IMG/VR virus record: IMGVR_UViG_3300008113_000031
Span: 29,786-93,785 of that record
DNA length: 64,000 nucleotides
Source: a virus
Strand: one strand, 5' to 3'
Notes under the pieces: model-generated
What the model was told of the DNA's origin: nothing
The model's input: the letters and a program-made list of their open reading frames with translations, nothing else
The model's database searches: none
Position numbers and translations under genes: made by a program
Part shown: piece by piece, positions 2,031-48,092 of the stretch
Layout: each line of letters begins with the position of its first letter
Position numbering within the stretch: the stretch's first letter is position 1

Positions 2031-5000
2031 ATGGCTAAAGTATCTATAGAAAAATATTTAACCGCCTCTATGGCAACAATGTCAAAAGCAAAATATGATT
2101 CTGCCCTTAAAGAAGTAAGTACAGCTTTAACAACCGCTCTTAGTGTATATTCTGAACTCAAGCAAAAAGTTCAATCAGATCCGAACAAAAGATTTGCAAA
2201 TAGTTTTAATACAATTAACCCTGTCAACTATTCAGAAGAAAGCGGTGGAAACCTAGGTCTGCATAACTTTTGGTATATTGCATTTTCTGAAATAGAAAGA
2301 GGTTATGACGAGGAATTTGGAGGAGGAAGTGGCGGACAAGATGGTCGTGGCAATAACGTATGGGGGAAGCCAAATACTCCTAGCGTAGCTACTCAAAATT
2401 ATATAAAAAATACAATTTGGCCAAAAGTTGAAAAACTTTTAGATATAAAGAATAAATACGTAAATGACGAACCCAATGGAGAAAACACTATCATTAATGC
2501 GTATGACGTTGATGCATTCTTTAATAGTTATGCGGCTATGGGTGGTCAATACAATTATTATGAATGGGAAGACGTAGACCCAGCAGCACTTTTGGCTGGT
2601 GGAACATTTCTCTGGCAAACTATATTTGAAACTACTTCTAACGAAGTTGGCGCTAAGGCTGGAATTTACATCAAAGCCTTAGCTAAGGTAAAGATTTTTG
2701 GTATTGCGGGCAAAATAGGTGGCGCCTCTGTCTTATATGGAACTTTAGCTGGAATCATTGCCTTGCTTCAAGGCGTAAAATATAAACTGGAAAATTTTGA
2801 TCCAATTACGCATACATTTAAGACAACTTTTGCAGAAGATTTAATTAATCAAGCTCAATCAGAAATTACCCTAGCAAACCAGTTAGATGCAATCTTATCT
2901 AAGTATGGAATAGTTTTTAGTATAGATCAAGAGTTATCCAGAAAATACGGTCAAGTTTTTAGTGCAAATATAACAAAATATAAATCATCATTCTTTAGGG
3001 TTATGGCCCCAAATGATGTTCTTTTAGAAAAAGATCAGACTTACATTAAGGGTATTTGGGACAGGATTAGAACAAGTGGCTTATTAGACCTTGCATTAAG
3101 CGCAACTTCTATAGGTGAATTCGCACGAAAAAGATTCTCAGCTGGTAACAACTTACTTGACCCACAGTTAGGAAGCGCAAGTCAAGCTTTAGATCCAGTA
3201 AGAGATACTTTATGGTTAAATGACTTAGTTATTGTTACTCAAAATCTTACAAGAGACCCAATAACACTAGCTTTGGTTCAAGCATATTTTCCTAGCCTAT
3301 CAACATTATTCTTTAATGCATCAGCAGCAGCAGCAGATTACTCTGGTGGCAGTGAAGATGATCCAATTAATAATATAGATGAATTAGCTAAATCTTTATT
3401 GAGAGCTTTTGGCACCGATAAAGATGGCAAACCTATATTTAAACCAGCTTGGGAGTTAACAAACACAGCCCAAAGAATTAAAAAAGCACTTGAAGAATTT
3501 CCATTTAGAGAAAATATACCACCAAAGACTCCAGATATATTTCACTTTAGACTAGGCGCTGCAAACTTTTACGTCCCCCCAGTCTCAATTAATGTAAGTT
3601 CTCAGTTTAAAACTGGAAGTTTAACATCAGGTGCAATTAGACAAAAAAATAGCCCTAAGTTTAATGCTGGGTATAAAGAAACAACAATTAATGTTAAGTT
3701 ATTTTTCCCTAACTATGAGGAAATATGGGGCTTATCAATTGATGGAATCAAAGATGTTACAATTAATAAAGACTTTAAGATAGACTTTAAGGAAGCTGGA
3801 AACGAAGAGAAAATAGATAAGTTTTTATCTTCATTGAGAGGCTTAGTTGCAGCATTTAAATATGCGCCAATATTACCAGTTAAGAGTCACTATCTTAATA
3901 TGGTTCATGGAATTAGTGGAGTGGCATTGTCGTCAATGAGCATATCTACAATTCCAAATTATCCCTTTGCTTTAGTGGTTGATCTTGAACTTTTAAATTT
4001 CAACCACAAACCATTTCTTCCAATGATTAAAGATTTTAACCAAGCTGTTCACTGGGGTAAATTCAGGCACTATATGGGTAAAGCAGCAGGTAGTTTACAT
4101 AGTTATATTAATGAATCTTTCTTGCTTCCAAAACCAGAAGACGCAGAAGATCCAGATCCCAACTTAACAAGAGTTACTTCTCAAACACCATATTACACAA
4201 AAACATCTCCAACTAAACTTAATAATAATGTTGGAAATCAAGAATCAGAAGTAGAACCAGATCTTATTACCGATCCTTATAAGGATGATATTTTTACAAC
4301 AAATGTAATTAAAGAATATAGAAATGGAAATAATATTTCTTTATTTATACCAGAGAGAATACAGACTAAGTTATTCACCCCAGATACATCTTCGTTTAGA
4401 TCAGATGAAGAAAGAATGTTAGATGACACTGGTGAGTCTATGTGGGATTCTTTGTTGAAAAAAATTGGCATTGATATAAATCAATCAGCTGGCTATTATC
4501 GATCACTAGGTTCCGTTGTTCAAACTTCAATAGAAGGATCAGTTAGCCCCTCTGCAAGAAGAGTCGTACTAGAAAGTATAGAGCTAATAACTGCTGGCGT
4601 AAATAAAGATACTTATATGGAAAAGGTATATGATTATTTTGCAAAAGCATTCGTTGCAGAAAATAAATCTCTTTTAACACAAGATGAAATTGATTATATA
4701 TTAAAAGATCCCAATGAAAGCACTGTCCAAGATTATACTTCTACAGCACAAACTTTTAAATACAGGGGTAAAGATCTTATAATAAATAACAGTTCTTCTA
4801 CTGGCGATGAAACAAACTATAGCCTTAAGGATGTAAGACACTTATTTAAGCAGGCATCTCGCAATGCTTCTAGTGCACTAGATCAACTTGCCAATGAAGA
4901 AGCAGATAGGAAAGCAGCTACAACCGGCAAGTCAAGAGATCAGTTCATTGACCAAGCAAAAGAAGATATTGGCAGAGCATTTAATGTTCTTGTATATAAT

Positions 5001-8000
5001 AGATTTTTTAAGAGTGGACCAATCCAGCAGCTTATGGAGGCCAAGAGGGCAAGGCAGGCAAAGTACCAATTCAATGAATGGGAAGTGCCGATGTTTAAAG
5101 TGGATCTTGATCCAAAGGCGGTTATCGTCAATGGTGTTTCTGTAACACTGGGTAACAACTTGGCTAAAATGCAACTGCAAATGCAGGAAGAGCCAACTTA
5201 TCAACATATTGGTGGAAAAGATTCTTATATCAATATATCTATGACTGTTTTTGGTGAAAAAGAATTAATAAAAATTAGAAAAGTTTTTGAGCATATAAAT
5301 GGTTTAGCTAGGATAGAACACTCTACTGGCGTCATAGGTTTCATGGGTATTAAAAATATAGTCGCTGCTCTAGCTGGAGTCAAGTATGTAATGCCATTAA
5401 GTTATGAGGTTAATACAATTCCAAACTTTCCTCATGTTTATGACGTAAGAATGTCTCTTGTCGACTTTGATATTTTCCAGCAGCAAAGAGAAACTATTTC
5501 TTCTAAACAGCAAAAAGAAATGATAGAAACATTTGGAACTAAAAGAAATCCATTCTTGAGAATTAAACAACTATGGGGTGCATTTAATGCATACCCAGAT
5601 TTTCCCCTTTCCATAAAAGATTCAAGCGGGGAAGTAGTGGGATGTCTAGATCCTGATTATTATTTCAGATCTTTTGAAATGTTTGACGAAGATATTATTG
5701 AACATCTTGCACCACAGCAAGAAAAAATGAAATCTTTTTCTATAACGCCAAAACAGTTAAACACACAATCTACAACTGATCATCAAAAAAATGTCAATAG
5801 AATTTTGAACGAAATTAAAACAATGGTTCAAAATAATGAACTTAAAAAACTAAAAGAATATTTTGATAAAGAACAGATAGGATTACTAGAAGCCTCTGCT
5901 TACGTAGAGGGAGCTGTCAGAGAGTTCTTTAGTGGTCAGAAAAAGAGTCTTTTAATAGATTTTATTAAGGAATATCCAGACGTAGATGATAAGACAGCAA
6001 CATTTGGTTTAACTGCAAGTCTTGGGTCTGGCAGTATTAAGTTTAATACCGCAGTGGGAGATTTGTCATACAGTGATTCAAGCGCGACTCAACAAATACA
6101 AAATATTTTAGAGACAAAAGATTTAGTTGTATCCGAAGATGGCTACTTAAGTATTGATCCAGATGAGTTAACCATACACCATACAATTACTTATATCCCA
6201 GCAGAAGAAAATCCTTCTGATGACAAAATGCCAGCCTTTTTATATCACGCAAATGGGTATCATTTGGGATATGTAAGTAAATCAAATAATAGATTTTACT
6301 TTACTGTTGATGGAGTAAGACCAGTTAAATCTGAGTCTGGTCAAGATAATGATGGCAAATTAAGTTATGTCCCAATTTCTGTTCCTTTTAGCGACGCAGA
6401 CGATCCAAGTAAGGCTTATAAAAAGGGAGAGGGAAGCGCTCACATTGATTCACTAAAAGGCGCAGGATCAAACCTAGCTGACTTTAGCGATCCATATTCG
6501 GCTGGTTCTGGTGATGGCCCAGAAGTAATGTCTACACAAGCTGCTAATAGCAACGTCGCGAAACACTGGGAAAGAATGCTAGTAGACACCAAATACAGAG
6601 ATATATCAGGAAGAATGATTAGAGCGTTTCCTACATATATGCTATGGCTAATAGATGAGGGTGGTTATTTTTCTGGTGTTAAACTTTTTGATAATTTTTA
6701 TGGACTTCAATCAATCATAGATTTTTCTGTTGTTCAATCTGAAGATATCTTAGGGGATACTCTAATTCTTAGAGTGTCAAACTTGTATTCAAAATTAACT
6801 ACAGCCGAATCAAGTAGAATATTTGACGCAGAAGAAGAATTTCAAAATGAACAACTAACTCAGCTAGACGGAATTGAATCAGTATTAGATAAGGCGCTGA
6901 ATAGATCTAGAAATATGCTAGCCCATATGGAAAGTACATATGTGGTTGACATTAATAGTATTAGATTAAAGCCAGGTGTGAGAGTCCACTTAAGAGGTGG
7001 ATATGGTGCAAATCCAAATGCGCTGCAAACTATTTTTAACGGAACTATTACTTCTGTTGAAAACGGAGAAATAGTAACGATAACAGCTCAATCAGACGCT
7101 ATTGAATTAAGCCCAATTGTTAACTCTACAAATAAAAAAGGTGATAGTGGTAAAATAGATGGTGGTATCAACACTGGTTTTTGGCTTTCAGAACCAAGAG
7201 ACTTAATGGTAAGACTTCTTACTATGGGATCTTCAAGAACCCGTGAAGCAATAGCTCATGCTACAAGAGGTAGAATTTTTTCCGAAAACAAATTTGGCAT
7301 TAGACACTTTGGGCAGATACTTTATGAGCCACTTAATGATCTCGAGGCTGCTAAAAATGAAGCTGTAGTTTCACAAGTTAAAGACATGTATGATTCGTTA
7401 GGTGAAGCTAGTGGTAATGCATGGGGTATGGGATCGGCATTAGGCATTCTTTCTTCAGGTTCAAACCAAGGTAGCGGAACTATGTTTGGAATAGGTCCAG
7501 AAGTTAGAGCTCCAGGTGTGTCATTAATGAGAACTTTGTGGGCTAACTTTAGCGCACAAAGGGACTTTGAAATCTTTAAAAGAAATATTTACCCAGGCAA
7601 TGGAACCGGAATTGCGCAATTTTTAGGCGGAGACCTTGGTGACGGATGGTCTACAGTAGCTAGTATTACTCCAGAAGATAAGCCAAACGAAAGACTGGAG
7701 TATATCGGAAGGCTTACTGATTATTCTTGGAATGAAATGGTTTCCAAAGCTGGAAATGGAATCTTTGAAGGTAACCCAGACGCCAAGCAGTTAGTTGACA
7801 TTAATGGTAAGCCAAACGAAATAGGTAATAGCAATAGCTCAGCCGGTTTTGCAAAAGTTGCTCTTGGTGGAGCAATTGCAGCTGCAGGCATTGCGGTTAC
7901 TGGAGGGTTGGGGGCTCCAATAATAGGAGGAGTTCTTGCCACTGGTGGATTAGCTGGAGTTTTAAGTGGAAGAGGAGGAACCAGCATATTTAATGCAATG

Positions 8001-11000
8001 GGGATTACTTCTGGATCAGACGATGATCTTCCTGGGCTAGATGAAGTTTCCTTTAGAGCTCAAACATATATGAGAACAGTTTGGGACCTTTTCCAAATGT
8101 GTGCAAGATTACTTCCTAACTACATTGTTGCCGTCAGACCCTTTGAAGATAGATCAACTGTATTCTATGGTAAGCCACATTGGTTATATACATCTGGAGT
8201 TGTACCACTTACAACTGGATACCCTGGAACAAAGAGGGCTCAAGAACTTGGAATTTCTTCTCCCAAAGAACTTGACACTGACTACATTCTTGAAAGTACA
8301 ATGAAAGATATTAATGAGTCTTCAAATCCATTAGCAGACGCTGCAGCGTTTAATCAATTGGATACCTCTTTAATATCAATAAATGACACATTATCTCAGC
8401 AGTTAACTTCAACTGAAGGTGGAGTTTATATTCCTGTAGATAAAATTAAAGATGAAAATGGAAAAGGCAGAATAATAGCTTTTGGATATCAATCTACAAT
8501 GGAGTATAGAGACAATTCCGGTAATCCAATAGCTAAGCTTCCAAGCTCTCACGGTTACGCCACAGTAGGCTATCACCTTCCAGTAAGCTCAGAAGAAGTT
8601 ACTCAAGTAACTCTTGATGAAGAACAGATTAAAAATCACAAACAAATAGACCAACTACCACTCAGATATAGATTTCCATTCTTTACAGATAGAGATGACA
8701 AAATTGTATTGGAAGACTTTGCATATTATGCTATTGCGGATCAATTAGGAGCCTGGCAAAACCACCATGCAGACTACATGAAACTTGTTCGCGACAACGC
8801 TAGTTACAATGGTGTAGGTGGGACAAAAGAAGAAACTAGATGGATTGAGTTAATGAAGATGGAAACAAGCCTATACACAGGTGTTTCAACTGTGGATACT
8901 GGCGAGTTAAGAAACTTCAATGGAATACCTCTTGCGATGAAGTTGCTTTCTGGAAATATTCCAAGTTTCAAGGGTCTAGAGCAAGAAGTTGCAGATAAAT
9001 ATATATTCCAAGAAAAATTAGGGCAAGCTGGTTTATCAGGAACATCTTCAGTAGTCAGAATGCCACTGCCAGATAATCCAGCTCTTTCTTCTTCCGCAGA
9101 AACAAGAGCAGACTTGTATGATGTTTTAAAGGATCGTCCTGATTTCAATACTAACGCTGCTGGGTTAAGAGATTGGAAAGCTCCAAAAACGCCTTTAGAA
9201 GAGCAGTTCTACATTGCTATGAAATGGCCATATAAACCATCAGATGCATTTAGCGATCAAACAATAGAGCAATTTATACAAAGTCAAGGTGGATATGTTC
9301 CAGTCGGCAATGCAAAAAGTTATCAAGAAAGAAAAGTTATGGTTTACAGCCCTAGCACTGGTAAGGCCGTTGTGTGTAGACCTGCATACTATCTTTGGGG
9401 CGAACAAACAGTCAGTATTGCAAAGCCAAGTGCTAACGACTATACAGATAATGACGATCCTACAAAGAATATAGTGGGAGGATTTGATATCTTTGGAAAT
9501 CCTAGAGGTGGATCAAGCGACGACTATGGAGTACTTGATGGGGGCGGCAATGCCCTACAGTTAGGTTATGACATTGCGCTTTCTGCTTTGGTTTCACCAG
9601 ACGCAGCATATTTCTTGGGAATGCTTAATTTAACTGCAGCAGAAAAAGCAATTTGGTCATCTGGCGATAGATCTAAGAATGAAGGTGATTGGCACGGCGC
9701 AGAAGATGCAATAAAATCTTTAGCAGCTGCGGGAGTCGCACCGTTCCCAATGCCAAGAAAGTGCTACTATGCCTTTGTTCCTGATGATATGCCCCTGGGC
9801 GTAGTTCCTGATTTTGTCATGCCAATAGATGAATTCTCGCCTCCTGGTCAAGAGGTTATTCATGAATATGGTTCTGATAAAAAAATAATATCATTTGGAG
9901 CATATAAGGGTAAAAAAACAACCATTAATAACAGTAATTACAATCCAAGTGGATCTTCTGATGGAGAAAATTTCTTTGAGTTTAAACCATCTTCTGCAAT
10001 AGAAATGGAAGATGTTTTAAATTCTGTTGGAAAACTTGAAATAGCAGGAAACGTTTTAGGAACAAATGGCACATTTGGTCCTGGCACTGGAGATTATTTT
10101 GATTTGGTCAGAAATCAAGACTGGGAAGGTATTGAAAATCTAAAGAAAGTTTTAGAAGGAGAACTAAAAGATAGATCAACTTTTGCTCAAAAAAGATTTT
10201 CTGCAGTATATGATGAAGCAGAGCCAAAATCAGTAGAAGCTAGAAATTTTTATGATGAAGATTATAATCCAAGTGTTGCCGTAATAGCAGGAAATGGAAG
10301 AACTCTACAGCAGGCAATGGAAGTATGGGATCAATTTAGGGCTGGGTATCATACGTATTCAAATGTTAAAGAAGCTTTTGTTAGAGCATATGGTCTTCCC
10401 GCTGAAGGAGAAGAAAGCGAACAAGACCTTGGTACATTTTTAACTGGTGGTTTTGGTTTAGGTAAAAAACTTGGAGACAAAGGTTTGACTTCTGGTAAGC
10501 AAACACCAGATCAATATATAGATGGACTAGAAGGAAGATACTCTACTCAAACAACAGATTCGCAAGAGTCTGCCGCCGCTGCAGATAAAGATTTAAAAAA
10601 TCTATTCCAGTATTATAGTGAATCAAATAATTCTGCTGAAGATGAATTTAGTTTGGTTTTTGGAGACAGCTTCTTTGCTAATCCAGATTGGGTTGGTAGC
10701 GAAAACGCTGCTACACAAGCTGCTCTCAGAGGAAATCCGGAAAAAATAAGACAAGGTTTAGAGGCAGCTAGAAAAGATTTTATTGATAATCCAGATTCAA
10801 AAAATGGATTAATTAGTTATTTTAATGAATTACTTAATGATAAATTAGATAAGATATTATCAATAATTAGAGATTCTTTGTCATTATCTGGAGTGACGGA
10901 TAAAGAAGCTCAGGATCAGTATATAGCTTCAATTAAAACATCTAGACAACTTTTCTTATTTATGGTTGGAGCATTCAGAAACAGAATGTGGTCAGACCCA

Positions 11001-13958
11001 TATGCAAGAGCATGGTTAGTTTTGAAGCCAAACAGAAAACTTGTAGGCGATGACAAATGGGATTTTAATCCAGTACTAAAAATGTTCCAAGCTTATATTG
11101 ATCCAAATGAAGACTACGCTAAGAGTAAAGATAAGTTTACAAAGCTTTTGGCACAAAATAGATCAGAAGGAAGCAGTGCAACAAACTTTATAGGCAAATG
11201 GGGAGAAGACATTAGTGGATTCTGGGATAAGAATATTGGTCCACTTTTCAGCGCTCTAGGTGATTCCCTTAGCGGTTTAGTAAACTTGTTTAGAATGTCT
11301 ATGATGCAGTTGGGGTATGGTTTATCTCAGGTTGGTCAAATGACAAAGCAGGCAAATATTCTAAACAAGGTTCTTAATGACTCTATATATTATTCCTTAG
11401 GAAGACCTGGTTCATTACTAAGAGCTGTTGATAACCCATTTACCAGAGAGTACGCAGAGCCTGTAATAGAAATTAGACAACCTTTCCAAAGGGTTCATTA
11501 TCTAAGTTCATTTTCTCATATTATTTCTAATGGTATAACAGAAAACTTAAACGGTGTTGCAACTATGGTAACTGCTGTTTCTGATGGAAAATATCCAGTT
11601 ACGGTTGCAATGGATAAGTCTGCTCCAGCAGAAAGACAGGTTGAGAAAACTGTTGAAACTGGTTTGTTTTTTGATAACGCCACTGGGTCTGGATTGTTTG
11701 GCGCACTTCATCCAATACTTCATCCATTTGAATTTGCTAGAGGAATTTCAAAATTTGCTCAAGGTACACCAGATGAAATGTTAGCCAGGAGAGTTGCGCT
11801 GGCCCATTTGAAAGAGTCACTAAAAGATATCTATACAGGGGAAATTCTAATAGTAGGCAATGCCGATATTAGACCTCATGATATAGTTTATCTTGCTGAC
11901 GTTTATGAGAGAATGTACGGCATGTTTGAAGTTGAGCAGGTTGTACATCACTTTACTTCTGAACTCGGCTTTGTAACATCCATAACTCCCAATGCTCTGG
12001 TGACAGTTAACGACCCCGCAAAATGGTTTATGTCTTCTTGGATTGGAACATGGATGCATATGCAATCATTAAGAAATGACACTAGACTATACATGGGTTC
12101 TCTTGGTTCTGGAGTTAATTCAATGGCGCAGATCAGTGTAGACGGTTTAGCAGACGCACTTCAAACCCAAATGGTTGGCGGTCTTCAGTTTACCCACGGA
12201 GCAGCAGCGTTGACAAAAGATATAATGGCGCATTTTACCTCTGAAGGAATAAACGACATTAATACTCAAGTTAAGGCTTTAGTAGCAGAAGGTTCTGCTG
12301 TGTCTTCTGGCAAAATTGCACTCGGAGGTATGGGTGCTATGTTTGCCGGAGCGACTGCCCTGGGTGCCACTGCAGCAGGAATTGCTTCTATGGCAATACC
12401 TGGAGCCGGTTTATTGGTTGGAGGAATTTCTGCTGGCCTTGGAGCTGGAGTTGGTGGAAAGTTAGCGTGGAAGGGCTGGACATGGATGAGAGATAATGTG
12501 TTGGATCAACACGGTTGCTACATTCAGTACCTTAACAAAAACGGTAAAGCCATGGATGCTGGGCTGGGTTTAAGCGGTCAAGGAATGGTAGTGGGAAGAT
12601 ATCATACTAAGAAGCTACTCCCAGGAATATTGGGCGTAAGTTCAAAGATTAGAACAGCAGAAGGGTATTCTTACATTAGAACTAATGATTTATTATCAAA
12701 ACTTGGTTGGAAAGAAAAAGAAATTAATGATCTAGTTAGGTATATAGACTTTGAAAACGCTCTAGTAAATACTCAAGTGTTAAGATATTCTGGAATTGGT
12801 CCAGAAAAAGCTGGACTTAATAGATTCTTTAAGGTTATTTGCAAAGTTGAAGATGTGCTTGACGGCGACACTATAGACGTAGTTGACTTGTTAGACACTT
12901 CTGGTAAAAAATTTAGAATAAGATTTGACGGAATAAACACTCCAGAAATTAATATTATTAAAACAGACTTGCATGTAAGCGGAAAGATGGCAAATATTAC
13001 AAATATACAAATTTCTTCAGGTAAAGCAACAATAACAACAGAGTCAAATCATAATTTTGAAAAAGACGAAGTATGCGCAATCGCCATAGATAACCCAGGT
13101 GGTTTTTACTTGTTAAATAGTTCTGCAAAAATTGAGGCTACTCCAACAGCAAACACTTTTATCGTATCAACTGTTCTTCCCGACAATGCACAAGCTAAAA
13201 CTGGAAAAGTTAGAGTGTATGCAAACAGTTCTGGAGACTTTATCAATTCTTCTTCGCCAGGTGGTAAAGCAAAAATGTTTACAAAGAACGCATTAAAGGA
13301 TAAGATATTTGTTCTTAGAATATCTCCAGAAAATGTAACAGCTTCTTTTACTGAGTTGGATTTTGAAGCCGGCTCTGCAAAGTCATTAGAGAGAAAAAAT
13401 ATAAACGGAGAATCTCTGCCAGCTTATTATGACAAAGATGTTTTTGGAGAAAGAATTCTTGGAGTTGTTTTCTACAAAACACCTGAACAGGTAATGGAGA
13501 CAATTATTAAAGAAACTAATTCTTTATTTGAAAAATATAAAAAAGCTTCTAATTCAGATTTAGTTTCGCAACTAGCTTCTAGTTTTTCTCCAGGAGTTTT
13601 TTCAGATAGATATTCTGATCTTTTAGAGCAAGCAAAAAATATTAATAAAACTAATTACTTTGCACAATATGCAACATCGCCTCTTAGTGCAAGTTCAGCC
13701 AGTTTTAAAAATACATATAATGCATATGTTTCCTTGAGGGTTGTTCAGTATATATATGAAAAAGTTTCTGAGTGGCCAAATGTTGAATGGGACGAGTACT
13801 ATGATGACGGAACTCCAGTTTCTTTAAACTATGAGTTAATTATCAACGGATTAGCAAAAGTCTATACAAAGGGACTTTTAATGGAGCAGCCGTCCGTTAT
13901 AGATTCATATGAAAATGCCGCCCTACCAAGTAGGGTAACAGTCAGGGAAGACAGATAA
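2031..13958 (+). CDS. Giant baseplate/tail hub protein with C-terminal nuclease-like domain
   Basis: A 3975-residue protein, the largest in the window. Residues about 503-663 and 1021-1156 look like two copies of one beta-rich tail-tip domain: both end in a Thr-Ile-Pro-Asn-(Tyr/Phe)-Pro motif followed by alternating hydrophobics. Residues about 1636-1695 resemble baseplate hub proteins of the gpD/gp27 type: a proline-glycine turn, a GYG motif, then FNG and a TAQSDA-like strand. Three glycine/alanine-rich hydrophobic stretches lie near residues 185-250, 1938-1981 and 3427-3480 and could touch membrane. From about residue 3603 there is a staphylococcal-nuclease-like region: DGDTI, then RFDGINTPE, then FGERILGVVF about 165 residues later, separated by a beta-rich insert. 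No in-frame CGG occurs in nearly 4000 codons. Lying upstream of lysin, spike and wedge genes, it is probably the central hub. The enzymatic role of the C-terminal domain is unproven. Confidence 0.85.
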   Translation: MAKVSIEKYLTASMATMSKAKYDSALKEVSTALTTALSVYSELKQKVQSDPNKRFANSFNTINPVNYSEESGGNLGLHNFWYIAFSEIERGYDEEFGGGSGGQDGRGNNVWGKPNTPSVATQNYIKNTIWPKVEKLLDIKNKYVNDEPNGENTIINAYDVDAFFNSYAAMGGQYNYYEWEDVDPAALLAGGTFLWQTIFETTSNEVGAKAGIYIKALAKVKIFGIAGKIGGASVLYGTLAGIIALLQGVKYKLENFDPITHTFKTTFAEDLINQAQSEITLANQLDAILSKYGIVFSIDQELSRKYGQVFSANITKYKSSFFRVMAPNDVLLEKDQTYIKGIWDRIRTSGLLDLALSATSIGEFARKRFSAGNNLLDPQLGSASQALDPVRDTLWLNDLVIVTQNLTRDPITLALVQAYFPSLSTLFFNASAAAADYSGGSEDDPINNIDELAKSLLRAFGTDKDGKPIFKPAWELTNTAQRIKKALEEFPFRENIPPKTPDIFHFRLGAANFYVPPVSINVSSQFKTGSLTSGAIRQKNSPKFNAGYKETTINVKLFFPNYEEIWGLSIDGIKDVTINKDFKIDFKEAGNEEKIDKFLSSLRGLVAAFKYAPILPVKSHYLNMVHGISGVALSSMSISTIPNYPFALVVDLELLNFNHKPFLPMIKDFNQAVHWGKFRHYMGKAAGSLHSYINESFLLPKPEDAEDPDPNLTRVTSQTPYYTKTSPTKLNNNVGNQESEVEPDLITDPYKDDIFTTNVIKEYRNGNNISLFIPERIQTKLFTPDTSSFRSDEERMLDDTGESMWDSLLKKIGIDINQSAGYYRSLGSVVQTSIEGSVSPSARRVVLESIELITAGVNKDTYMEKVYDYFAKAFVAENKSLLTQDEIDYILKDPNESTVQDYTSTAQTFKYRGKDLIINNSSSTGDETNYSLKDVRHLFKQASRNASSALDQLANEEADRKAATTGKSRDQFIDQAKEDIGRAFNVLVYNRFFKSGPIQQLMEAKRARQAKYQFNEWEVPMFKVDLDPKAVIVNGVSVTLGNNLAKMQLQMQEEPTYQHIGGKDSYINISMTVFGEKELIKIRKVFEHINGLARIEHSTGVIGFMGIKNIVAALAGVKYVMPLSYEVNTIPNFPHVYDVRMSLVDFDIFQQQRETISSKQQKEMIETFGTKRNPFLRIKQLWGAFNAYPDFPLSIKDSSGEVVGCLDPDYYFRSFEMFDEDIIEHLAPQQEKMKSFSITPKQLNTQSTTDHQKNVNRILNEIKTMVQNNELKKLKEYFDKEQIGLLEASAYVEGAVREFFSGQKKSLLIDFIKEYPDVDDKTATFGLTASLGSGSIKFNTAVGDLSYSDSSATQQIQNILETKDLVVSEDGYLSIDPDELTIHHTITYIPAEENPSDDKMPAFLYHANGYHLGYVSKSNNRFYFTVDGVRPVKSESGQDNDGKLSYVPISVPFSDADDPSKAYKKGEGSAHIDSLKGAGSNLADFSDPYSAGSGDGPEVMSTQAANSNVAKHWERMLVDTKYRDISGRMIRAFPTYMLWLIDEGGYFSGVKLFDNFYGLQSIIDFSVVQSEDILGDTLILRVSNLYSKLTTAESSRIFDAEEEFQNEQLTQLDGIESVLDKALNRSRNMLAHMESTYVVDINSIRLKPGVRVHLRGGYGANPNALQTIFNGTITSVENGEIVTITAQSDAIELSPIVNSTNKKGDSGKIDGGINTGFWLSEPRDLMVRLLTMGSSRTREAIAHATRGRIFSENKFGIRHFGQILYEPLNDLEAAKNEAVVSQVKDMYDSLGEASGNAWGMGSALGILSSGSNQGSGTMFGIGPEVRAPGVSLMRTLWANFSAQRDFEIFKRNIYPGNGTGIAQFLGGDLGDGWSTVASITPEDKPNERLEYIGRLTDYSWNEMVSKAGNGIFEGNPDAKQLVDINGKPNEIGNSNSSAGFAKVALGGAIAAAGIAVTGGLGAPIIGGVLATGGLAGVLSGRGGTSIFNAMGITSGSDDDLPGLDEVSFRAQTYMRTVWDLFQMCARLLPNYIVAVRPFEDRSTVFYGKPHWLYTSGVVPLTTGYPGTKRAQELGISSPKELDTDYILESTMKDINESSNPLADAAAFNQLDTSLISINDTLSQQLTSTEGGVYIPVDKIKDENGKGRIIAFGYQSTMEYRDNSGNPIAKLPSSHGYATVGYHLPVSSEEVTQVTLDEEQIKNHKQIDQLPLRYRFPFFTDRDDKIVLEDFAYYAIADQLGAWQNHHADYMKLVRDNASYNGVGGTKEETRWIELMKMETSLYTGVSTVDTGELRNFNGIPLAMKLLSGNIPSFKGLEQEVADKYIFQEKLGQAGLSGTSSVVRMPLPDNPALSSSAETRADLYDVLKDRPDFNTNAAGLRDWKAPKTPLEEQFYIAMKWPYKPSDAFSDQTIEQFIQSQGGYVPVGNAKSYQERKVMVYSPSTGKAVVCRPAYYLWGEQTVSIAKPSANDYTDNDDPTKNIVGGFDIFGNPRGGSSDDYGVLDGGGNALQLGYDIALSALVSPDAAYFLGMLNLTAAEKAIWSSGDRSKNEGDWHGAEDAIKSLAAAGVAPFPMPRKCYYAFVPDDMPLGVVPDFVMPIDEFSPPGQEVIHEYGSDKKIISFGAYKGKKTTINNSNYNPSGSSDGENFFEFKPSSAIEMEDVLNSVGKLEIAGNVLGTNGTFGPGTGDYFDLVRNQDWEGIENLKKVLEGELKDRSTFAQKRFSAVYDEAEPKSVEARNFYDEDYNPSVAVIAGNGRTLQQAMEVWDQFRAGYHTYSNVKEAFVRAYGLPAEGEESEQDLGTFLTGGFGLGKKLGDKGLTSGKQTPDQYIDGLEGRYSTQTTDSQESAAAADKDLKNLFQYYSESNNSAEDEFSLVFGDSFFANPDWVGSENAATQAALRGNPEKIRQGLEAARKDFIDNPDSKNGLISYFNELLNDKLDKILSIIRDSLSLSGVTDKEAQDQYIASIKTSRQLFLFMVGAFRNRMWSDPYARAWLVLKPNRKLVGDDKWDFNPVLKMFQAYIDPNEDYAKSKDKFTKLLAQNRSEGSSATNFIGKWGEDISGFWDKNIGPLFSALGDSLSGLVNLFRMSMMQLGYGLSQVGQMTKQANILNKVLNDSIYYSLGRPGSLLRAVDNPFTREYAEPVIEIRQPFQRVHYLSSFSHIISNGITENLNGVATMVTAVSDGKYPVTVAMDKSAPAERQVEKTVETGLFFDNATGSGLFGALHPILHPFEFARGISKFAQGTPDEMLARRVALAHLKESLKDIYTGEILIVGNADIRPHDIVYLADVYERMYGMFEVEQVVHHFTSELGFVTSITPNALVTVNDPAKWFMSSWIGTWMHMQSLRNDTRLYMGSLGSGVNSMAQISVDGLADALQTQMVGGLQFTHGAAALTKDIMAHFTSEGINDINTQVKALVAEGSAVSSGKIALGGMGAMFAGATALGATAAGIASMAIPGAGLLVGGISAGLGAGVGGKLAWKGWTWMRDNVLDQHGCYIQYLNKNGKAMDAGLGLSGQGMVVGRYHTKKLLPGILGVSSKIRTAEGYSYIRTNDLLSKLGWKEKEINDLVRYIDFENALVNTQVLRYSGIGPEKAGLNRFFKVICKVEDVLDGDTIDVVDLLDTSGKKFRIRFDGINTPEINIIKTDLHVSGKMANITNIQISSGKATITTESNHNFEKDEVCAIAIDNPGGFYLLNSSAKIEATPTANTFIVSTVLPDNAQAKTGKVRVYANSSGDFINSSSPGGKAKMFTKNALKDKIFVLRISPENVTASFTELDFEAGSAKSLERKNINGESLPAYYDKDVFGERILGVVFYKTPEQVMETIIKETNSLFEKYKKASNSDLVSQLASSFSPGVFSDRYSDLLEQAKNINKTNYFAQYATSPLSASSASFKNTYNAYVSLRVVQYIYEKVSEWPNVEWDEYYDDGTPVSLNYELIINGLAKVYTKGLLMEQPSVIDSYENAALPSRVTVREDR

Positions 13959-39660: not shown

Positions 39661-40368
39661 ATGATAATTGAGGATCTGCAAAAGGTTGTCAGTGGAGAAT
39701 CACTGCCTACAAATGTAGCAGACATGTACCTGAGAATATATGTTTCGGACATAGACTGGAAGCCGCACATTGCTAAGCACTGGTCTAATACAAAAAATAA
39801 AATGTCAGAAGAAGAACAAGCTAAAATGCATGTTAGAAAAACAATAGCTTGCGCCAGCCTTATTCCGTTGTATGACAAAAAGGTGATTCCAGATCCTCCA
39901 CAGAACCTTTTATTCTGGTGTCCGACTTGGTCTCAGTTCAATGAAAGAGACTGGGTTGATCTGTATAAAAAAGTTATAGAAGATGATATAAAAGTCAGAA
40001 ACTATAGGAAGAAACTATTGTCTTATGGTGTTGTAGATTCAATAGATTATTTACCGCTTACCAGACAGGCTTTTAACTGGCTATATAGCAAGGCAGAAGA
40101 TGCTAGAGCTATAACAGACAATAAAGAAGACTTAATCAAAAAGTTTGAAAACCTAGTTAAGATATACGGCGGTGCAGTTATATGTAACGTGTTTGCTAAG
40201 CACGAAAATAACGTAGCAAAAGTTCTCAACTGGAGAAGTGGATATTTTATAGAAAAAGAAATATACAAAATCTACAGTCCAGAACAAATATGCAAGATAA
40301 AACAAACGGAAATATCCAGAATAGATCCTAAGTACGTAAAAAAATTAACCAAAAACAAGGAGTCATGA
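39661..40368 (+). CDS. Unknown protein heading the nucleotide metabolism operon
   Basis: A 235-residue, mostly helical and basic protein. It has no membrane segment and no recognisable catalytic motif. It is the first gene after the strong terminator at 39.6 kb and is coupled to the ribonucleotide reductase gene, whose start overlaps its stop. AAGGG lies six bases before the ATG. Its position suggests a role linked to early or middle functions. No family is recognised. Confidence 0.7.
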   Translation: MIIEDLQKVVSGESLPTNVADMYLRIYVSDIDWKPHIAKHWSNTKNKMSEEEQAKMHVRKTIACASLIPLYDKKVIPDPPQNLLFWCPTWSQFNERDWVDLYKKVIEDDIKVRNYRKKLLSYGVVDSIDYLPLTRQAFNWLYSKAEDARAITDNKEDLIKKFENLVKIYGGAVICNVFAKHENNVAKVLNWRSGYFIEKEIYKIYSPEQICKIKQTEISRIDPKYVKKLTKNKES

Positions 40369-42479
40369 TGTCTGTCGAGACAGTAACGCAAGAACAAACA
40401 ACTACAAATTTTAATTTAACAGCCACTAATAAGACCACCAATATGTTCTCTTTTAGAATTAGTGACGACTTTTTATCAACATACAAAACTAAGACCCCAC
40501 CTTTTGGTTATAAAGATGCTGGCGGAAATTCTGTTGGAGAAATTACTTTTCTTCGCACATATTCAAGACTCAAAGAAGATGGAACAAAAGAAACATGGGT
40601 TGACGTTTGTGAAAGAGTAATTAATGGAATGTATTCTCTACAGAAAGATCACTGCAAGAGAAATAGATTGCCATGGAACGATGCTAAGGCTCAAGCATCT
40701 GCAAAGGAAGCATTTGACAGACTGTTTAATTTAAAGTGGACCCCACCAGGAAGAGGCCTTTGGGTTATGGGCACTCAGATAGTAAACGTTCAGAGAAACT
40801 CCGCTGCACTACAAAACTGTGCATTTGTATCAACTGCAGAAATGAATAAATTTAATCCAGCAAAGCCTTTTGGCTTCCTAATGGAAGCATCGATGCTGGG
40901 AGTTGGCGTTGGCTTTGACGACAAAGGTGCAGATAAAGATTTTGCAATTTATGAACCATCAAAGCCATCTGTTGTTGAAGTAATAGAAGACAGTAGAGAG
41001 GGTTGGGTGCAGTCTGTAACAAACCTAATTAATTCTTATCTTAAGGTCGATCAGAATCCAATTGAGTTTGATTACTCTTTAATTCGTCCTGCTGGAACTC
41101 CTATTAAAACATTTGGGGGAACAGCTTCAGGTCCTGGTCCACTTATTAAACTTCACACCGCAATTAATAAACTCTTTAAGGGTCGCGACGGACAAAAGCT
41201 TACAAGAAAAGATATTGCGGACATTGGAAACCTAATTGGTGTTTGTGTTGTTTCTGGAAATGTTAGAAGATCAGCAGAACTTCTCATAGGTAGAATTGAT
41301 GATGAGGATTTTCTTAACCTAAAAAACTCAGAAGTATTTCCAGAAAGAAACTCTTATGATTCTGAAAATCCAGGTTGGGGCTGGATGTCTAATAACTCAG
41401 TAGAAGTGTCGGTTGGTCAAGACCTGTCTCCCATCGTTGATGGAATTGCTAGAAATGGTGAACCAGGTGTTATTTGGTTGGATATGTCTCGCAAATATGG
41501 TCGCCTAGCTGACGCTCCAAACAATAAGGACTGGCGAGTAGCTGGTTATAATCCATGCGCAGAGCAGTCCCTAGAGTCATATGAATGCTGTACTCTTGTG
41601 GAGACATATCTTAATCGCCATGAGTCTCTTGAAGACTATAAGAGAACTTTAAAGTTTGCATACCTTTATGCAAAAACCGTAACTCTTCTTCCTACACACT
41701 GGGAAGAGACAAACGCAATCATGCAGAGAAATCGCCGTATTGGTACTTCAATGTCTGGTGTTGCAAACTTTGCTGATCGTGTCGGCATGCCTGTTCTGAG
41801 AGAGTGGATGGACGAGGGTTATAAGATCGTTAAGAATTATGATACTGTTTATTCTGAATGGCTAGGCATACGTGAATCAATTAAGATGACAACTGTTAAG
41901 CCTTCTGGAACAGTCTCTATTCTTGCCGGCGAGTCACCAGGAGTACATTGGACACCAGGTGGAAAGTACTTCAATAGGACAATTAGATTCTCTAATACAG
42001 AGCCCATGCTTGAGCTATTTAAGATGGCTAATTACATTGTTGAGCCAGCTTCTGAGTCACCAGATACAACATCTGTTGTGTATTTCCCAATTAAATCTGA
42101 AGCAGAAAGATCAGAAAAAGAAGTAACAATCTTTGAGAAGATGGCTTTAGCTGCTGCAGCTCAGAGATATTGGTCAGACAACTCTGTTTCTGTAACGATT
42201 TCTTTTGACGCAGAAAAAGAAAAAGACTACGTAGGTACTGTTTTGCACATGTATGATGGTCAGTTGAAAACTGTATCATTCTTACCAGAAGGCAACGCAA
42301 CGTACCCACAAATGCCTTACACTCAAATCACTGAAGAAGAGTACGAATCATATAAGGGTAAGTTATTCCCTATTGATTTCTCTGGAGTATATGCTGGAAT
42401 GGCTTCCGACGCTATTGGTGAAAATTACTGCACAACTGATGCATGTGAAATTAAGTTTATTAAGGAAAATAGTAAGTAA
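40368..42479 (+). CDS. nrdJ: Adenosylcobalamin-dependent ribonucleoside-triphosphate reductase (class II, monomeric)
   Basis: About 703 residues from the ATG at 40368, which sits five bases after AAGGAGT; the ATG three bases earlier would be too close. Class II RNR features are visible: TPPGRGLWVMGT near residue 125, NCAFVS with the first redox cysteine near 151, and NPCAEQ with the thiyl-radical cysteine and glutamate near 397. A second redox cysteine pair follows in YECCTL, then KPSGTVS, and a C-terminal CTTDAC pair that shuttles electrons to the active site. The length is near that of the monomeric Lactobacillus-type enzyme (about 740). It makes dNTPs from rNTPs without oxygen dependence but needs vitamin B12, so the host must supply or import cobalamin. 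The next genes, ThyX and dCMP deaminase, continue the same pathway. Confidence 0.92.
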   Translation: MSVETVTQEQTTTNFNLTATNKTTNMFSFRISDDFLSTYKTKTPPFGYKDAGGNSVGEITFLRTYSRLKEDGTKETWVDVCERVINGMYSLQKDHCKRNRLPWNDAKAQASAKEAFDRLFNLKWTPPGRGLWVMGTQIVNVQRNSAALQNCAFVSTAEMNKFNPAKPFGFLMEASMLGVGVGFDDKGADKDFAIYEPSKPSVVEVIEDSREGWVQSVTNLINSYLKVDQNPIEFDYSLIRPAGTPIKTFGGTASGPGPLIKLHTAINKLFKGRDGQKLTRKDIADIGNLIGVCVVSGNVRRSAELLIGRIDDEDFLNLKNSEVFPERNSYDSENPGWGWMSNNSVEVSVGQDLSPIVDGIARNGEPGVIWLDMSRKYGRLADAPNNKDWRVAGYNPCAEQSLESYECCTLVETYLNRHESLEDYKRTLKFAYLYAKTVTLLPTHWEETNAIMQRNRRIGTSMSGVANFADRVGMPVLREWMDEGYKIVKNYDTVYSEWLGIRESIKMTTVKPSGTVSILAGESPGVHWTPGGKYFNRTIRFSNTEPMLELFKMANYIVEPASESPDTTSVVYFPIKSEAERSEKEVTIFEKMALAAAAQRYWSDNSVSVTISFDAEKEKDYVGTVLHMYDGQLKTVSFLPEGNATYPQMPYTQITEEEYESYKGKLFPIDFSGVYAGMASDAIGENYCTTDACEIKFIKENSK

Positions 42480-44639: not shown

Positions 44640-44901
44640 AGTACTTGTATTTTTACTTGCGTGTTTTTCCGTAGGTATAATTGCTGGTAGTATTTCAAAA
44701 AATAAATTGAAAAAAAATATTAGTCAAAATTCTTTGACAATACAAAACTATGTTAATAGATTATCTGAGTTTGATCTTACTGAAACTAAATCAGCTTCAG
44801 AATTATTTTTTGACTTAATGTCCACAGGGTTTCATCCACAATCTGCTTTTGATATAGTGGCTAAAGAATGTATTGATGTTGGAGAAAAATTTAATGATTG
44901 A
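44617..44901 (+). CDS. Small membrane-anchored protein
   Basis: About 94 residues from the ATG at 44617, four bases after AGGA and overlapping the upstream gene. Basic residues (MNKKKNGE) are followed by one hydrophobic segment (VLVFLLACFSVGIIAGSI), then a polar helical domain. This is the layout of an N-terminal signal anchor with a cytoplasmic or periplasmic tail. The segment LACFSVG could also be read as a weak lipobox, but no clear lipoprotein motif is present. Function unknown. It overlaps the glycosyltransferase gene by 8 bases. Confidence 0.65.
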   Translation: MNKKKNGEVLVFLLACFSVGIIAGSISKNKLKKNISQNSLTIQNYVNRLSEFDLTETKSASELFFDLMSTGFHPQSAFDIVAKECIDVGEKFND

Positions 44902-45709
44902 TTTATGTGTAGTTAATTACAACACAAGACCACTACTGCAGAGATTTTTGGACACGCTGCACTCAGATTTATATAGTCCAAATGGCGCGCTCGTAAAAAA
45001 CTGGAATCTATATATCACTGATAATGATTCTACTGATGATTTCATTCCGTGGATTAGACAAAATGAAGAGCGATACCTTATAAATAGAACTTATCTTAGA
45101 CAAAATATTGGTTACTCAGCAGCCATTAATATGATGGCTAGCAAAAGTGATGGAGATATAATCGGCGTTCTTAATGGTGACGTATGGATGACATCAGAAG
45201 ATTGCGTTAAGATAGAAAATATTTTTAACGATAATCCAGATGTTCATATTCTTGGTCCAAAGCAAAGAGATGAAAATGGCTTCATCACACACGCTGGCAT
45301 TATTGGAACAAACATTACTCCCAAGCACAGAGGGTGGAGAGAACATGATCCGCAAGATCTTTTATATAAGGACAGAATTAATTGCGTAACGGTATCCGGT
45401 TCTGCTTATTTTGTTAGAAGAGATGTTTGGAATGACCTTACAAATAATCCAAAATACAGAGAAATTTACCCTGATGCAATAGGAGCATTCTTGCCAACTC
45501 CTCATTATTATGAGGAAACTTGGTGTTCGTACTTTGCTAGACATCTTGGTTACAATGTAGTATATGATGGCTCTGTGTCAATAGGTCACAGTTGGCACGC
45601 TTCTACTCCAAAACCAGGACAAGGCGTAAGTCATGCGGATAGATACTTTCCAGTGTCTAGAGAAATTTTTAGAAAAGCCTGTGACCATATAGGAATAGAA
45701 AGAGATTAA
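44894..45709 (+). CDS. Family 2-type glycosyltransferase
   Basis: About 271 residues from the ATG at 44894, eight bases after GGAGA; upstream in-frame codons lack a ribosome-binding site. GT2-fold signs are the N-terminal VVNYNTR strand, the nucleotide-binding DNDSTDD, GYSAAINMM, and a DxD-like LNGDVW. A tryptophan/histidine-rich acceptor side follows (YYEETWCSYFARHLGY, then GHSWHAS). It would transfer a sugar from a nucleotide-sugar to an unknown acceptor: a modified base, a virion protein or a host surface glycan. A second GT2-type gene lies at 48359. Confidence 0.85.
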   Translation: MIDLCVVNYNTRPLLQRFLDTLHSDLYSPNGALVKNWNLYITDNDSTDDFIPWIRQNEERYLINRTYLRQNIGYSAAINMMASKSDGDIIGVLNGDVWMTSEDCVKIENIFNDNPDVHILGPKQRDENGFITHAGIIGTNITPKHRGWREHDPQDLLYKDRINCVTVSGSAYFVRRDVWNDLTNNPKYREIYPDAIGAFLPTPHYYEETWCSYFARHLGYNVVYDGSVSIGHSWHASTPKPGQGVSHADRYFPVSREIFRKACDHIGIERD

Positions 45710-46115: not shown

Positions 46116-47312
46116 ATGCTTGTCAGTGAGTTGGATATTCCTTTTGTTAAAAATACATACACTAGATTTGAGCAAAGAGAAGAAACATTTGCCTTAAGAG
46201 ATCAAACTTGGATAGGCAAAAATAATATAGGCTATGTCCTCTTTAGACACGAAGATATTAATAATGTTTTAAAAGACAGTCGCTGGCATACTGCCATAGG
46301 ATTACTTGCTGAGTTAAATACCAACCTTCCTGCAGAGTTTAAGCAGAGAAGAAAAAATGGTTTAATGGCACTTAATGATAAAGCTCATTCAAGGTTAAAA
46401 AAATTAGTAGTGCCAGCTTTTACCGCTAGGCACTCCGATAGTCTTAGGCCGTTTATGGGTTTGTTAATGAATGAACTTATTGACTCATTGGCAACAAAAC
46501 AAACAATAGACTTACAGAAGGATATTTTTAACTATTACCCGATACCAATTCTATGTAAGTTATTTGGTATACCTAGTAGTGACTGGAAAATGTTTAGCGA
46601 TTGGTCCTACTTAATGTTTAATATATTTAACTTAAGCGGCGAAATTAATCAAGAAAAAGTATCAAGTGCTCAAAAAGAATTTGATGAGTATACTTCTGAT
46701 CTTATTTCTTATAAGAGAAAAAACCTAACAGATGACTTACTTTCTAGTCTAATTAAATCAGAACAAGATGGAGATCTTTTATCCACAGAAGAGCTGATTA
46801 TGCTCATAGAAATAATTATTGCTAGTGGAATTGACACCACAAGATGCCAATTGGGTTTATGCTCTAAGACAGTCTTGGATTATAATTTACAAAATAAAGA
46901 AATAAAAAATTATTTAGAAGAAATTATTAGATATGATTCAGTGCTTAGGGGAACTGTAAGAATAGCTTCCGAAGATATTTCCTATAAAGATACCGTTTTT
47001 CCCAAGGGCACTTTAGTTTATTTAAATATTGTTTCCGCAAACTTTGATTCAACAGTTTTTTATAATCCAAATGAAATAATTCTTGATAGAAAAGAATTAC
47101 ATAAAACACTATCTTTTGGTTCTGGCCTACACTATTGTTTAGGCGTAGCCTTAGCTAAGGCAGAAATTGAAGAGGGTCTAAGTGTGTTGTTTTCTAGAAT
47201 AGGTGATAGAATAGAATCATGGGAAGCAACCAGCTTGCCAGTTACATCAGTAATAAATGGATTAGACTCTTTAAAGGTAACATTAAATGCAGACATTTCT
47301 TCCGTATCCTGA
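46116..47312 (+). CDS. Cytochrome P450
   Basis: A 398-residue protein, the normal length of a soluble bacterial P450. All the signature parts are in order. KAHSRLKKLVVPAFT is the C-helix heme-propionate region near residue 90. ASGIDTT (residues 236-242) is the oxygen-activating I-helix, E269-x-x-R272 in LEEIIRYDS is the K-helix, and SANFDSTVF is the meander region. FGSGLHYCLG (334-343) carries the heme-ligand Cys341. No transmembrane anchor is present, so it should take electrons from a ferredoxin. No ferredoxin or reductase gene is in the window, so host partners are implied. It overlaps the next gene by 26 bases, and its AT-rich, AGA-type codons match the phage, which suggests an old acquisition. 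The substrate is unknown. Confidence 0.92.
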   Translation: MLVSELDIPFVKNTYTRFEQREETFALRDQTWIGKNNIGYVLFRHEDINNVLKDSRWHTAIGLLAELNTNLPAEFKQRRKNGLMALNDKAHSRLKKLVVPAFTARHSDSLRPFMGLLMNELIDSLATKQTIDLQKDIFNYYPIPILCKLFGIPSSDWKMFSDWSYLMFNIFNLSGEINQEKVSSAQKEFDEYTSDLISYKRKNLTDDLLSSLIKSEQDGDLLSTEELIMLIEIIIASGIDTTRCQLGLCSKTVLDYNLQNKEIKNYLEEIIRYDSVLRGTVRIASEDISYKDTVFPKGTLVYLNIVSANFDSTVFYNPNEIILDRKELHKTLSFGSGLHYCLGVALAKAEIEEGLSVLFSRIGDRIESWEATSLPVTSVINGLDSLKVTLNADISSVS

Positions 47313-47691
47313 TTTTGTACAGTCAATAAAAGTTCTAGACTATCGTCGGCTCGGCAAGCAACGCGTAGAAACATTCCAGGTACTTAACATTCTATTGGAT
47401 AGAACTCCAACTAAAGGATGGCGCAATCACCCAGTCACCCGTATGTGGACTGGCTACGAAGAAGCCCTAAAGCTGTATCAGAATTACACTATACTAGAGT
47501 GGATAGACAGAGGCTATAATAACACTATGAAGTTTGAAGACATAGATCATTCTTCAATTGTTTATCCATCATGGTTTGGTAGCGATGAATTTCATAGGTC
47601 TCATAGGTCTAATCTCTTAAGAAAAGATTACGAATATTATTCTCAATACTTTGACGATCCAGCAGATTTAGAGTATTATTGGCCAGTATGA
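47287..47691 (+). CDS. MSMEG_6728-like family protein, with a normal in-frame CGG
   Basis: A 134-residue protein. It starts with MQTFLPYPDF, followed by VLDYRRLGKQRVE and later GWRNHPVTRMW. This is the pattern of a small family known mainly from actinobacteria and their phages (MSMEG_6728-like), sometimes compared with pyrimidine-dimer glycosylases. The role is not established here. The codon at 47347 is CGG and lies in the conserved DYRRLGKQR motif, so it is read as Arg. It is followed by C, unlike the nine shift sites, and a shift there would soon end at TAG. Arg codons are mixed (CGT, CGC, CGG beside AGA/AGG), more GC-rich than in the neighbours, perhaps a sign of recent transfer from the host. 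Confidence 0.8.
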   Translation: MQTFLPYPDFVQSIKVLDYRRLGKQRVETFQVLNILLDRTPTKGWRNHPVTRMWTGYEEALKLYQNYTILEWIDRGYNNTMKFEDIDHSSIVYPSWFGSDEFHRSHRSNLLRKDYEYYSQYFDDPADLEYYWPV

Positions 47692-48092
47692 GTATTGCAG
47701 TTTACTTAGCTGGAGCCATGGATTATGTTGGTGACTACGCCAAGGGATGGCGTAAGTCGGCAACTGAGTCGTTAATGTTGTTGGGCTATAGGGTTTATGA
47801 CCCCACTTCTATTCCAGAAGAACCCAATATGACCCCGGATGAAATAGCTCAAAAAAATCTCTTCATGCAGAAAAAATCGGATATTTTGCTGGTAGAATAC
47901 ATGCTAGAAAACAGAGCATACATAGGAACTGATTACGAAATGGCTTGGGCAAAAATGAACAATCAGCCATGCGTAGTTATGTGCTCTAATCAAAACAAAG
48001 ATCGCCCATATATGAAATATATGGCAACAAAACTTGCAGACAACCTGCAAGATGCTATAGAATATATAGCAATTCATTATCCAACTAACTAA
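47688..48092 (+). CDS. Nucleoside 2-deoxyribosyltransferase-like protein
   Basis: About 134 residues from the ATG at 47688, which overlaps the TGA of the upstream gene. It begins with the Rossmann-like VYLAGAMDY strand-loop and has DILLVEYML in the middle, then GTDYEMAWA with a Glu that lies where the nucleophile sits in the family, and VVMCSNQNKDRPYM. The fold is shared by nucleoside 2-deoxyribosyltransferases, which exchange bases on deoxyribosides, and by nucleotide hydrolases. A role in nucleotide salvage or in supplying a modified nucleotide is possible. Confidence 0.75.
   Translation: MSIAVYLAGAMDYVGDYAKGWRKSATESLMLLGYRVYDPTSIPEEPNMTPDEIAQKNLFMQKKSDILLVEYMLENRAYIGTDYEMAWAKMNNQPCVVMCSNQNKDRPYMKYMATKLADNLQDAIEYIAIHYPTN

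Follow-up and report, generated by a model that had tools for sequence, protein, structure and literature searches.

The window analysed here, a stretch of 64,000 nucleotides, is a section of a 93,785-bp virus record that carries contractile-tail, replication and nucleotide genes. An initial annotation had reported a complete cytochrome P450 gene in it, which raises the questions of whether a phage possesses this enzyme, from where the gene was acquired, and what the protein may oxidise. The gene is located in a cluster that includes genes for ribonucleotide reductase (RNR), ThyX, dCMP deaminase, two family 2 glycosyltransferases (GT2), and a deoxyribosyltransferase-like protein. The features of the window relevant to these questions are the following.

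40365 to 42479, plus strand: class II RNR, 80% identical to the RNR of the predicted actinophage DSL-LC01
44873 to 45709, plus strand: family 2 glycosyltransferase (PF00535), a core gene of the window clade irrespective of the P450
45711 to 46109, plus strand: SNase-like nuclease (PF00565, 6e-14), 5' border of the P450 slot
46116 to 47312, plus strand: cytochrome P450 gene of 398 amino acids in a single unbroken ORF, recognised with PF00067, phmmer, AlphaFold2, and Foldseek
46824 to 46841, plus strand: I-helix oxygen-activation motif S-G-I-D240-T241-T242 with the acid-alcohol pair, from the alignment of phage P450s
46920 to 46931, plus strand: ExxR motif E269-I-I-R272, which varies elsewhere in the phage clade (DxxR, KxxR, ExxA)
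47115 to 47144, plus strand: heme-binding loop FGSGLHYCLG with the thiolate ligand C341, invariant in the alignments
47287 to 47691, plus strand: pyrimidine dimer DNA glycosylase (Pyr_excise; PF03013, 3e-23; junction DNA), 3' border of the slot
47679 to 48092, plus strand: deoxyribosyltransferase-like protein (weak match that does not reach the Pfam cut-off), found irrespective of the P450
50393 to 51847, plus strand: DnaB-like helicase, the query that recruited phage relatives with and without the P450

The Pfam model p450 (PF00067) matched the window protein with an E-value of 7e-21 and 74.9 bits, above the curated cut-off of 22.8, and the best phmmer match among solved P450s was MycG (E 4e-43). 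The comparison with PHROGs returned no match for the protein. The signatures of the superfamily were all identified, namely the pattern FxxGxxxCxG in the heme loop (F334-G-S-G-L-H339-Y-C341-L-G343), ExxR (E269 and R272), and the acid-alcohol pair (D240-T241) within S237-G-I-D240-T241-T242. An AlphaFold2 model built from a diverse alignment of 29 sequences reached a mean pLDDT of 88 and a pTM of 0.88; a model from only 13 close homologs had a pLDDT of 53 and was discarded. With Foldseek, the retained model aligned to solved P450s, such as AurH, MycG, and CYP109, with TM scores of about 0.8-0.86, and the predicted fold is that of the P450 superfamily. Positions 46116-47312 therefore encode a complete bacterial-type P450, and the heme cysteine, ExxR, and I-helix threonine (C341, E269/R272, and T241) named in the initial annotation are present.

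The window P450 recurs in fourteen other viral contigs with 72-100% identity, one of them an end fragment of 60 residues. Where flanks are present in these contigs, the gene is always found between the SNase-like gene and the gene for the pyrimidine dimer glycosylase. Since it recurs at the same junction, the P450 is not an assembly artefact. Relatives recruited with the helicase gave 80 loci that were compared for presence or absence of the P450, and close relatives such as L031 and L034 (helicase 89-90% identical) lack it. In P450-less relatives the site is empty, with the SNase stop abutting or overlapping the glycosylase start (TAATG or TAGTG). In the window, the last 26 bp of the P450 gene are the first 26 bp of the glycosylase gene. 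All records are metagenomic contigs from uncultured viruses, which leaves an artefact or contamination from a host contig conceivable in principle; nevertheless, other contigs in which phage genes flank the P450 at this junction, together with the relatives possessing an empty site, refute this explanation for practical purposes and reduce its probability to almost nothing.

Other relatives possess different genes in the same slot, including a 2OG-Fe(II) oxygenase (L094), C5-methyltransferases, GlcNAc-type glycosyltransferases or an AIPR protein, and the slot is thus a hotspot for cargo. The AIPR-family protein, of the abortive-infection type, is encoded in L065:4182-5471 and L069:4179-5477, and the Pfam run was carried out on L065. 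In L040:2633-5490, which lacks the P450, a C5-methyltransferase and paired GlcNAc-type glycosyltransferases, the first of them matching PF11397, are located between the GT2 and SNase genes.

The initial annotation had considered the neighbouring glycosyltransferase, SNase, and deoxyribosyltransferase-like genes as a possible base-modification set. In such a pathway, the P450 would oxidise a nucleotide or DNA base for hypermodification, in cooperation with the glycosyltransferases and nucleotide enzymes encoded nearby. The position of the gene within the nucleotide cluster and the C5-methyltransferases in related cargo slots fit this idea. Nonetheless, the GT2, SNase, and deoxyribosyltransferase-like genes stay in place with or without the P450, and therefore provide no evidence for a base-modification pathway. 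Among the relatives recruited by the helicase, the presence of these genes did not follow that of the oxidase, and the P450s of other phages are located in quite different contexts. To our knowledge, no P450 acts on DNA. We consider a role in base modification very unlikely.

The initial annotation had also described P450s as very rare in phages. A tblastn search of the window P450 against 50,697 phage records gave no match, in agreement with that statement, but further phage P450s, 34-47% identical, emerged from a pattern search whose alignment included bacterial homologs, and a later search added a few. Altogether, members of the phage P450 clade were found in about 38 viral contigs in addition to the window record. 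These belong to several types of phages. The P450 of L105 occupies a slot identical to that of the window. In L107-L112, L114, L115, L225, L270, and L281, the P450 forms the end of a module with 2OG-oxygenase and tryptophan-halogenase genes, L225 being an extra case found beside a halogenase. A third phage type comprises L116-L120, L133, and L293. The contigs L113 and L121 represent a fourth context, and are identical over the stretch of sequence available.

The gene appears to pass between phage lineages and genomic slots. A comparison of helicase and P450 illustrates the exchange between lineages: the helicase of L009 is only 72-74% identical, as expected of a distant relative, but the P450s of L009 and L013 share 81% identity. 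Between L013 and the window, identity reaches 92% in the helicase and only 74% in the P450. These identities indicate recombination around the P450. Similarly, L120:7944-9137 and L133:7989-9224 occupy the same slot with upstream flanking proteins 91-100% identical, but their P450s are only 33% identical, which corresponds to an allelic replacement of the P450.

Concerning the origin of the gene, a profile of the close phage homologs did not match the genome contigs searched. With the phage-wide profile, the nearest bacterial relatives were detected in metagenome-assembled genomes (MAGs) of Acidimicrobiia and other Actinomycetota, and in one MAG labelled Acidobacteriota. In eleven out of thirteen such genomes the top gene scored 320-443 bits, and their other P450s scored about 201 bits or less. 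The profile singles out one gene per Acidimicrobiia genome (about 390-443 bits, and to 476 bits in a wider sample of the class, where 35 out of 296 genomes match at E 1e-75). In a phylum-wide sample, every genome with a match above 380 bits had been part of the class sample as well. The other matches scored about 270-310 bits, and most of them came from genomes containing at least 50 P450 candidates.

In the maximum-likelihood tree, sixteen phage P450s group together in a single clade (bootstrap/SH-aLRT 100/100), whose sister is P450 L147 of genome G236 (100/98). The clade is placed inside a branch of 46 rows (100/99) with P450s of Acidimicrobiia and phages, and one divergent paralog of G236. 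It persists after addition of four more phage sequences (20 representatives, SH-aLRT 99). Several rows were flagged by the tree program for long branches and skewed composition. The P450s of L122-L125 (GC 65%) were excluded from the phage clade, as their GC content and neighbours look bacterial. The actinobacterial affinity for which the initial annotation had proposed a phylogeny is thereby recovered. As the phage P450s form a single branch nested among those of Acidimicrobiia, one capture is the simplest reading, and the gene was probably acquired once, from an Acidimicrobiia-type actinobacterium.

Similar to the phage P450s, the stand-alone P450s of Acidimicrobiia, such as those of Desertimonas flava (L138), Acidimicrobiaceae (L134), and G236 (L147), are single-domain and soluble, and share the I-helix sequence DTTRxQL. 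The window protein is 33-39% identical to ten Acidimicrobiia-type proteins and 38% to that of G236, with a best segment of 40%, and the threshold usually applied to a CYP family is at least 40% identity. Unlike their bacterial relatives, the phage members are AT-rich, are surrounded by phage genes, and possess a variable ExxR motif. The GC content of the window phage (36%) differs from that of the sampled bacterial P450 loci (51-65%), a point against capture from this source. In the window clade, 6-7 residues that other family members possess between the I helix and ExxR are missing. No conserved gene neighbourhood naming a substrate was found among the bacterial orthologs.

The host of the window phage is suggested by a second gene. 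After the RNR of DSL-LC01, a metagenome-assembled phage with Actinomycetia as predicted host, the next match to the class II RNR of the window is that of Mycobacterium phage Gaia, with 58.5% identity. Taken together, the kinship of the RNR and the origin of the P450 point to an actinobacterium as the probable host. A search for helicase matches in about 790 sampled actinobacterial genomes, performed without a positive control, gave none.

Between divergent alleles of the P450, dN/dS was 0.11-0.18 (NG86), ratios that are approximate because dS is near or above 1. Purifying selection on the phage P450 is clear. With its cellular origin, its location in phages, and its maintenance by selection, the gene is a candidate auxiliary metabolic gene, which would change host metabolism during infection. 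The residues required for oxygen activation are also maintained. C341 is invariant in all 29 aligned P450s and in all twenty phage P450s; in the latter, T241 is likewise invariant, and residue 240 is either D or E throughout. The ExxR motif is near-universal in P450s, and it is replaced in some members of the phage clade, by DxxR in L003 and L011, by KxxR in L120, and by ExxA in L116-L119. The P450s of L116, L118, L119, and L120 retain the heme cysteine and the acid-alcohol pair, and lack the canonical ExxR. The pattern of motifs in the clade reads as oxygen chemistry that was probably kept while the structure near the K helix was relaxed.

These variants could also be taken as signs of drifting cargo, that is, of a protein that still folds and perhaps binds heme without being a monooxygenase any longer, acting for example in binding or scavenging. 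Besides the altered ExxR, about 15 residues are missing before the heme loop in L116-L120, and the allele L014:4917-5984 has lost 43 residues in frame (about 69-111), although this loss may be an assembly fault, since other ORFs on the L014 contig are also broken. Against such a loss of function stand the low dN/dS, the retention of the heme cysteine and the acid-alcohol pair, and the presence of all motifs in the window copy, so that we regard it as improbable. The evidence instead supports a working, presumably ferredoxin-dependent monooxygenase.

Neither Fer2 and Fer4_15 ferredoxins nor flavodoxin were detected in the record of the window, in accordance with the initial annotation, which had found no redox partner in the window and assumed a host ferredoxin. 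Nonetheless, this absence does not extend to the phages of the clade in general. The phage of L118 (G694) possesses a Fer4_15 ferredoxin (E 1.3e-16) adjoining an SNase gene. Fer4_15 ferredoxin is also present in the P450-less relatives G009 and G010, in a region without homologs in the window record. This region is therefore probably missing from the record, and the absence of a redox partner cannot be transferred to the whole phage. The ferredoxin of the P450-carrying phage is encoded in L296:1592-1852 on the minus strand, and its relatives occur in hundreds of viral contigs. A ferredoxin dedicated to the P450 was rejected as an explanation for this group, as it is widespread and a P450 was found within the flank of none of the best 80 Fer4_15 loci.

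We consider it likely that the window encodes an active, soluble P450 of bacterial type, captured from an Acidimicrobiia-type actinobacterium and kept by lake phages as exchangeable cargo. During infection, the enzyme would take heme from the host and be supplied with electrons by a Fer4_15-type ferredoxin together with the corresponding reductase, either those of the host or, in some phages, with their own ferredoxin. Oxygen would be activated via the acid-alcohol pair and the cysteine-ligated heme, and the substrate oxidised may be a small hydrophobic host metabolite. This class of substrate is our first choice by analogy, as soluble bacterial P450s usually act on small hydrophobic metabolites.

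The best rival to a host metabolite as substrate is suggested by a module in the tail region of the same phage genome, located upstream of the window (L016:5957-10179, record G000). Its products are a 2OG-Fe(II) oxygenase, a protein resembling tryptophan halogenases (PF04820, E 8e-100), and two further proteins that match no Pfam family. The P450, the flavin-dependent tryptophan-halogenase-like protein, and the 2OG-Fe(II) oxygenases of the tail region could together form an oxidative-tailoring set for the decoration of a small molecule, a virion protein or a component of the cell surface. The halogenase is present in seven out of nine large P450-carrying records of the clade, and the window phage has the module at record positions 5957-10179; a 2OG oxygenase can replace the P450 in its slot (L094), and P450s at the end of the module are found on either strand and are divergent, roughly 29-52% identical between lineages. 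However, P450 and module are about 69 kb apart in the window clade, a P450 is nearby in only five of the best 80 halogenase loci, and a shared insertion hotspot would produce the same adjacency. The P450-less relative G010 also possesses the halogenase, and no halogenase was detected in the P450-bearing phages of L113 and L121; strict dependence of the P450 on the halogenase was rejected on these grounds. A joint tailoring function is accordingly possible but rather unlikely, and oxidation of a host metabolite remains our preferred reading. Equally tentative is a broader scenario, in which one actinobacterial capture gave rise to a P450 family of lake phages, alleles swapped in slots diversify its specificity, the halogenase and 2OG oxygenase belong to the same kit, and some members without ExxR are functional.

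Lamb et al. 2019, as cited in PMC9405906, describe virus-encoded P450s, with Mycobacterium phage Adler among the carriers as well as a frog herpesvirus and giant viruses. The models of giant-virus P450s match the window P450 at only 12-19% identity. The best structural match in the viral library was A0A6J5NCR8, a CypX-annotated P450 of an uncultured Caudovirales phage (TM 0.76-0.79), which shares only 22% identity with the window P450 and is outside the sampling of the tree. Viral flavin-dependent halogenases are known from cyanophages (Gkotsi et al. 2019, cited in PMC10452541). Similar to these, the window phage genome possesses a tryptophan-halogenase-like gene, which adjoins the P450 in sister lineages; its product is 25-37% identical to the isolate-phage halogenases listed, and belongs to a different enzyme class than the P450.

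Phage P450s as such have already been reported, and the novelty is a phage-specific P450 clade and its behaviour, of which we found no description in the open literature searched, only part of the whole literature. The related work found there was limited to phage Adler, giant-virus P450s, and phage flavodoxins. Earlier reports of phage P450s are isolated; here a clade is present whose bacterial source can be identified, whose insertion sites are clean, and whose alleles are swapped, with a tie to viral halogenases in some lineages. Its natural variants are available for expression, and the set with altered ExxR could test the purpose of this motif. Phage P450s also offer a way to ask what oxidation chemistry benefits a virus infecting lake bacteria.

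Phage P450s outside the clade were found as well. In the tree, L126, L129, and L131 are representatives of separate lineages (L126-L130 and L132; L131), with the genes at L126:7908-9110, L129:7845-9008, and L131:3123-4277, in records of up to 206 kb. Some of these regions hold several 2OG-oxygenase-like genes. Elsewhere in the window, positions 2031-13958 contain an ORF of 3,975 amino acids, which is large for a phage protein.
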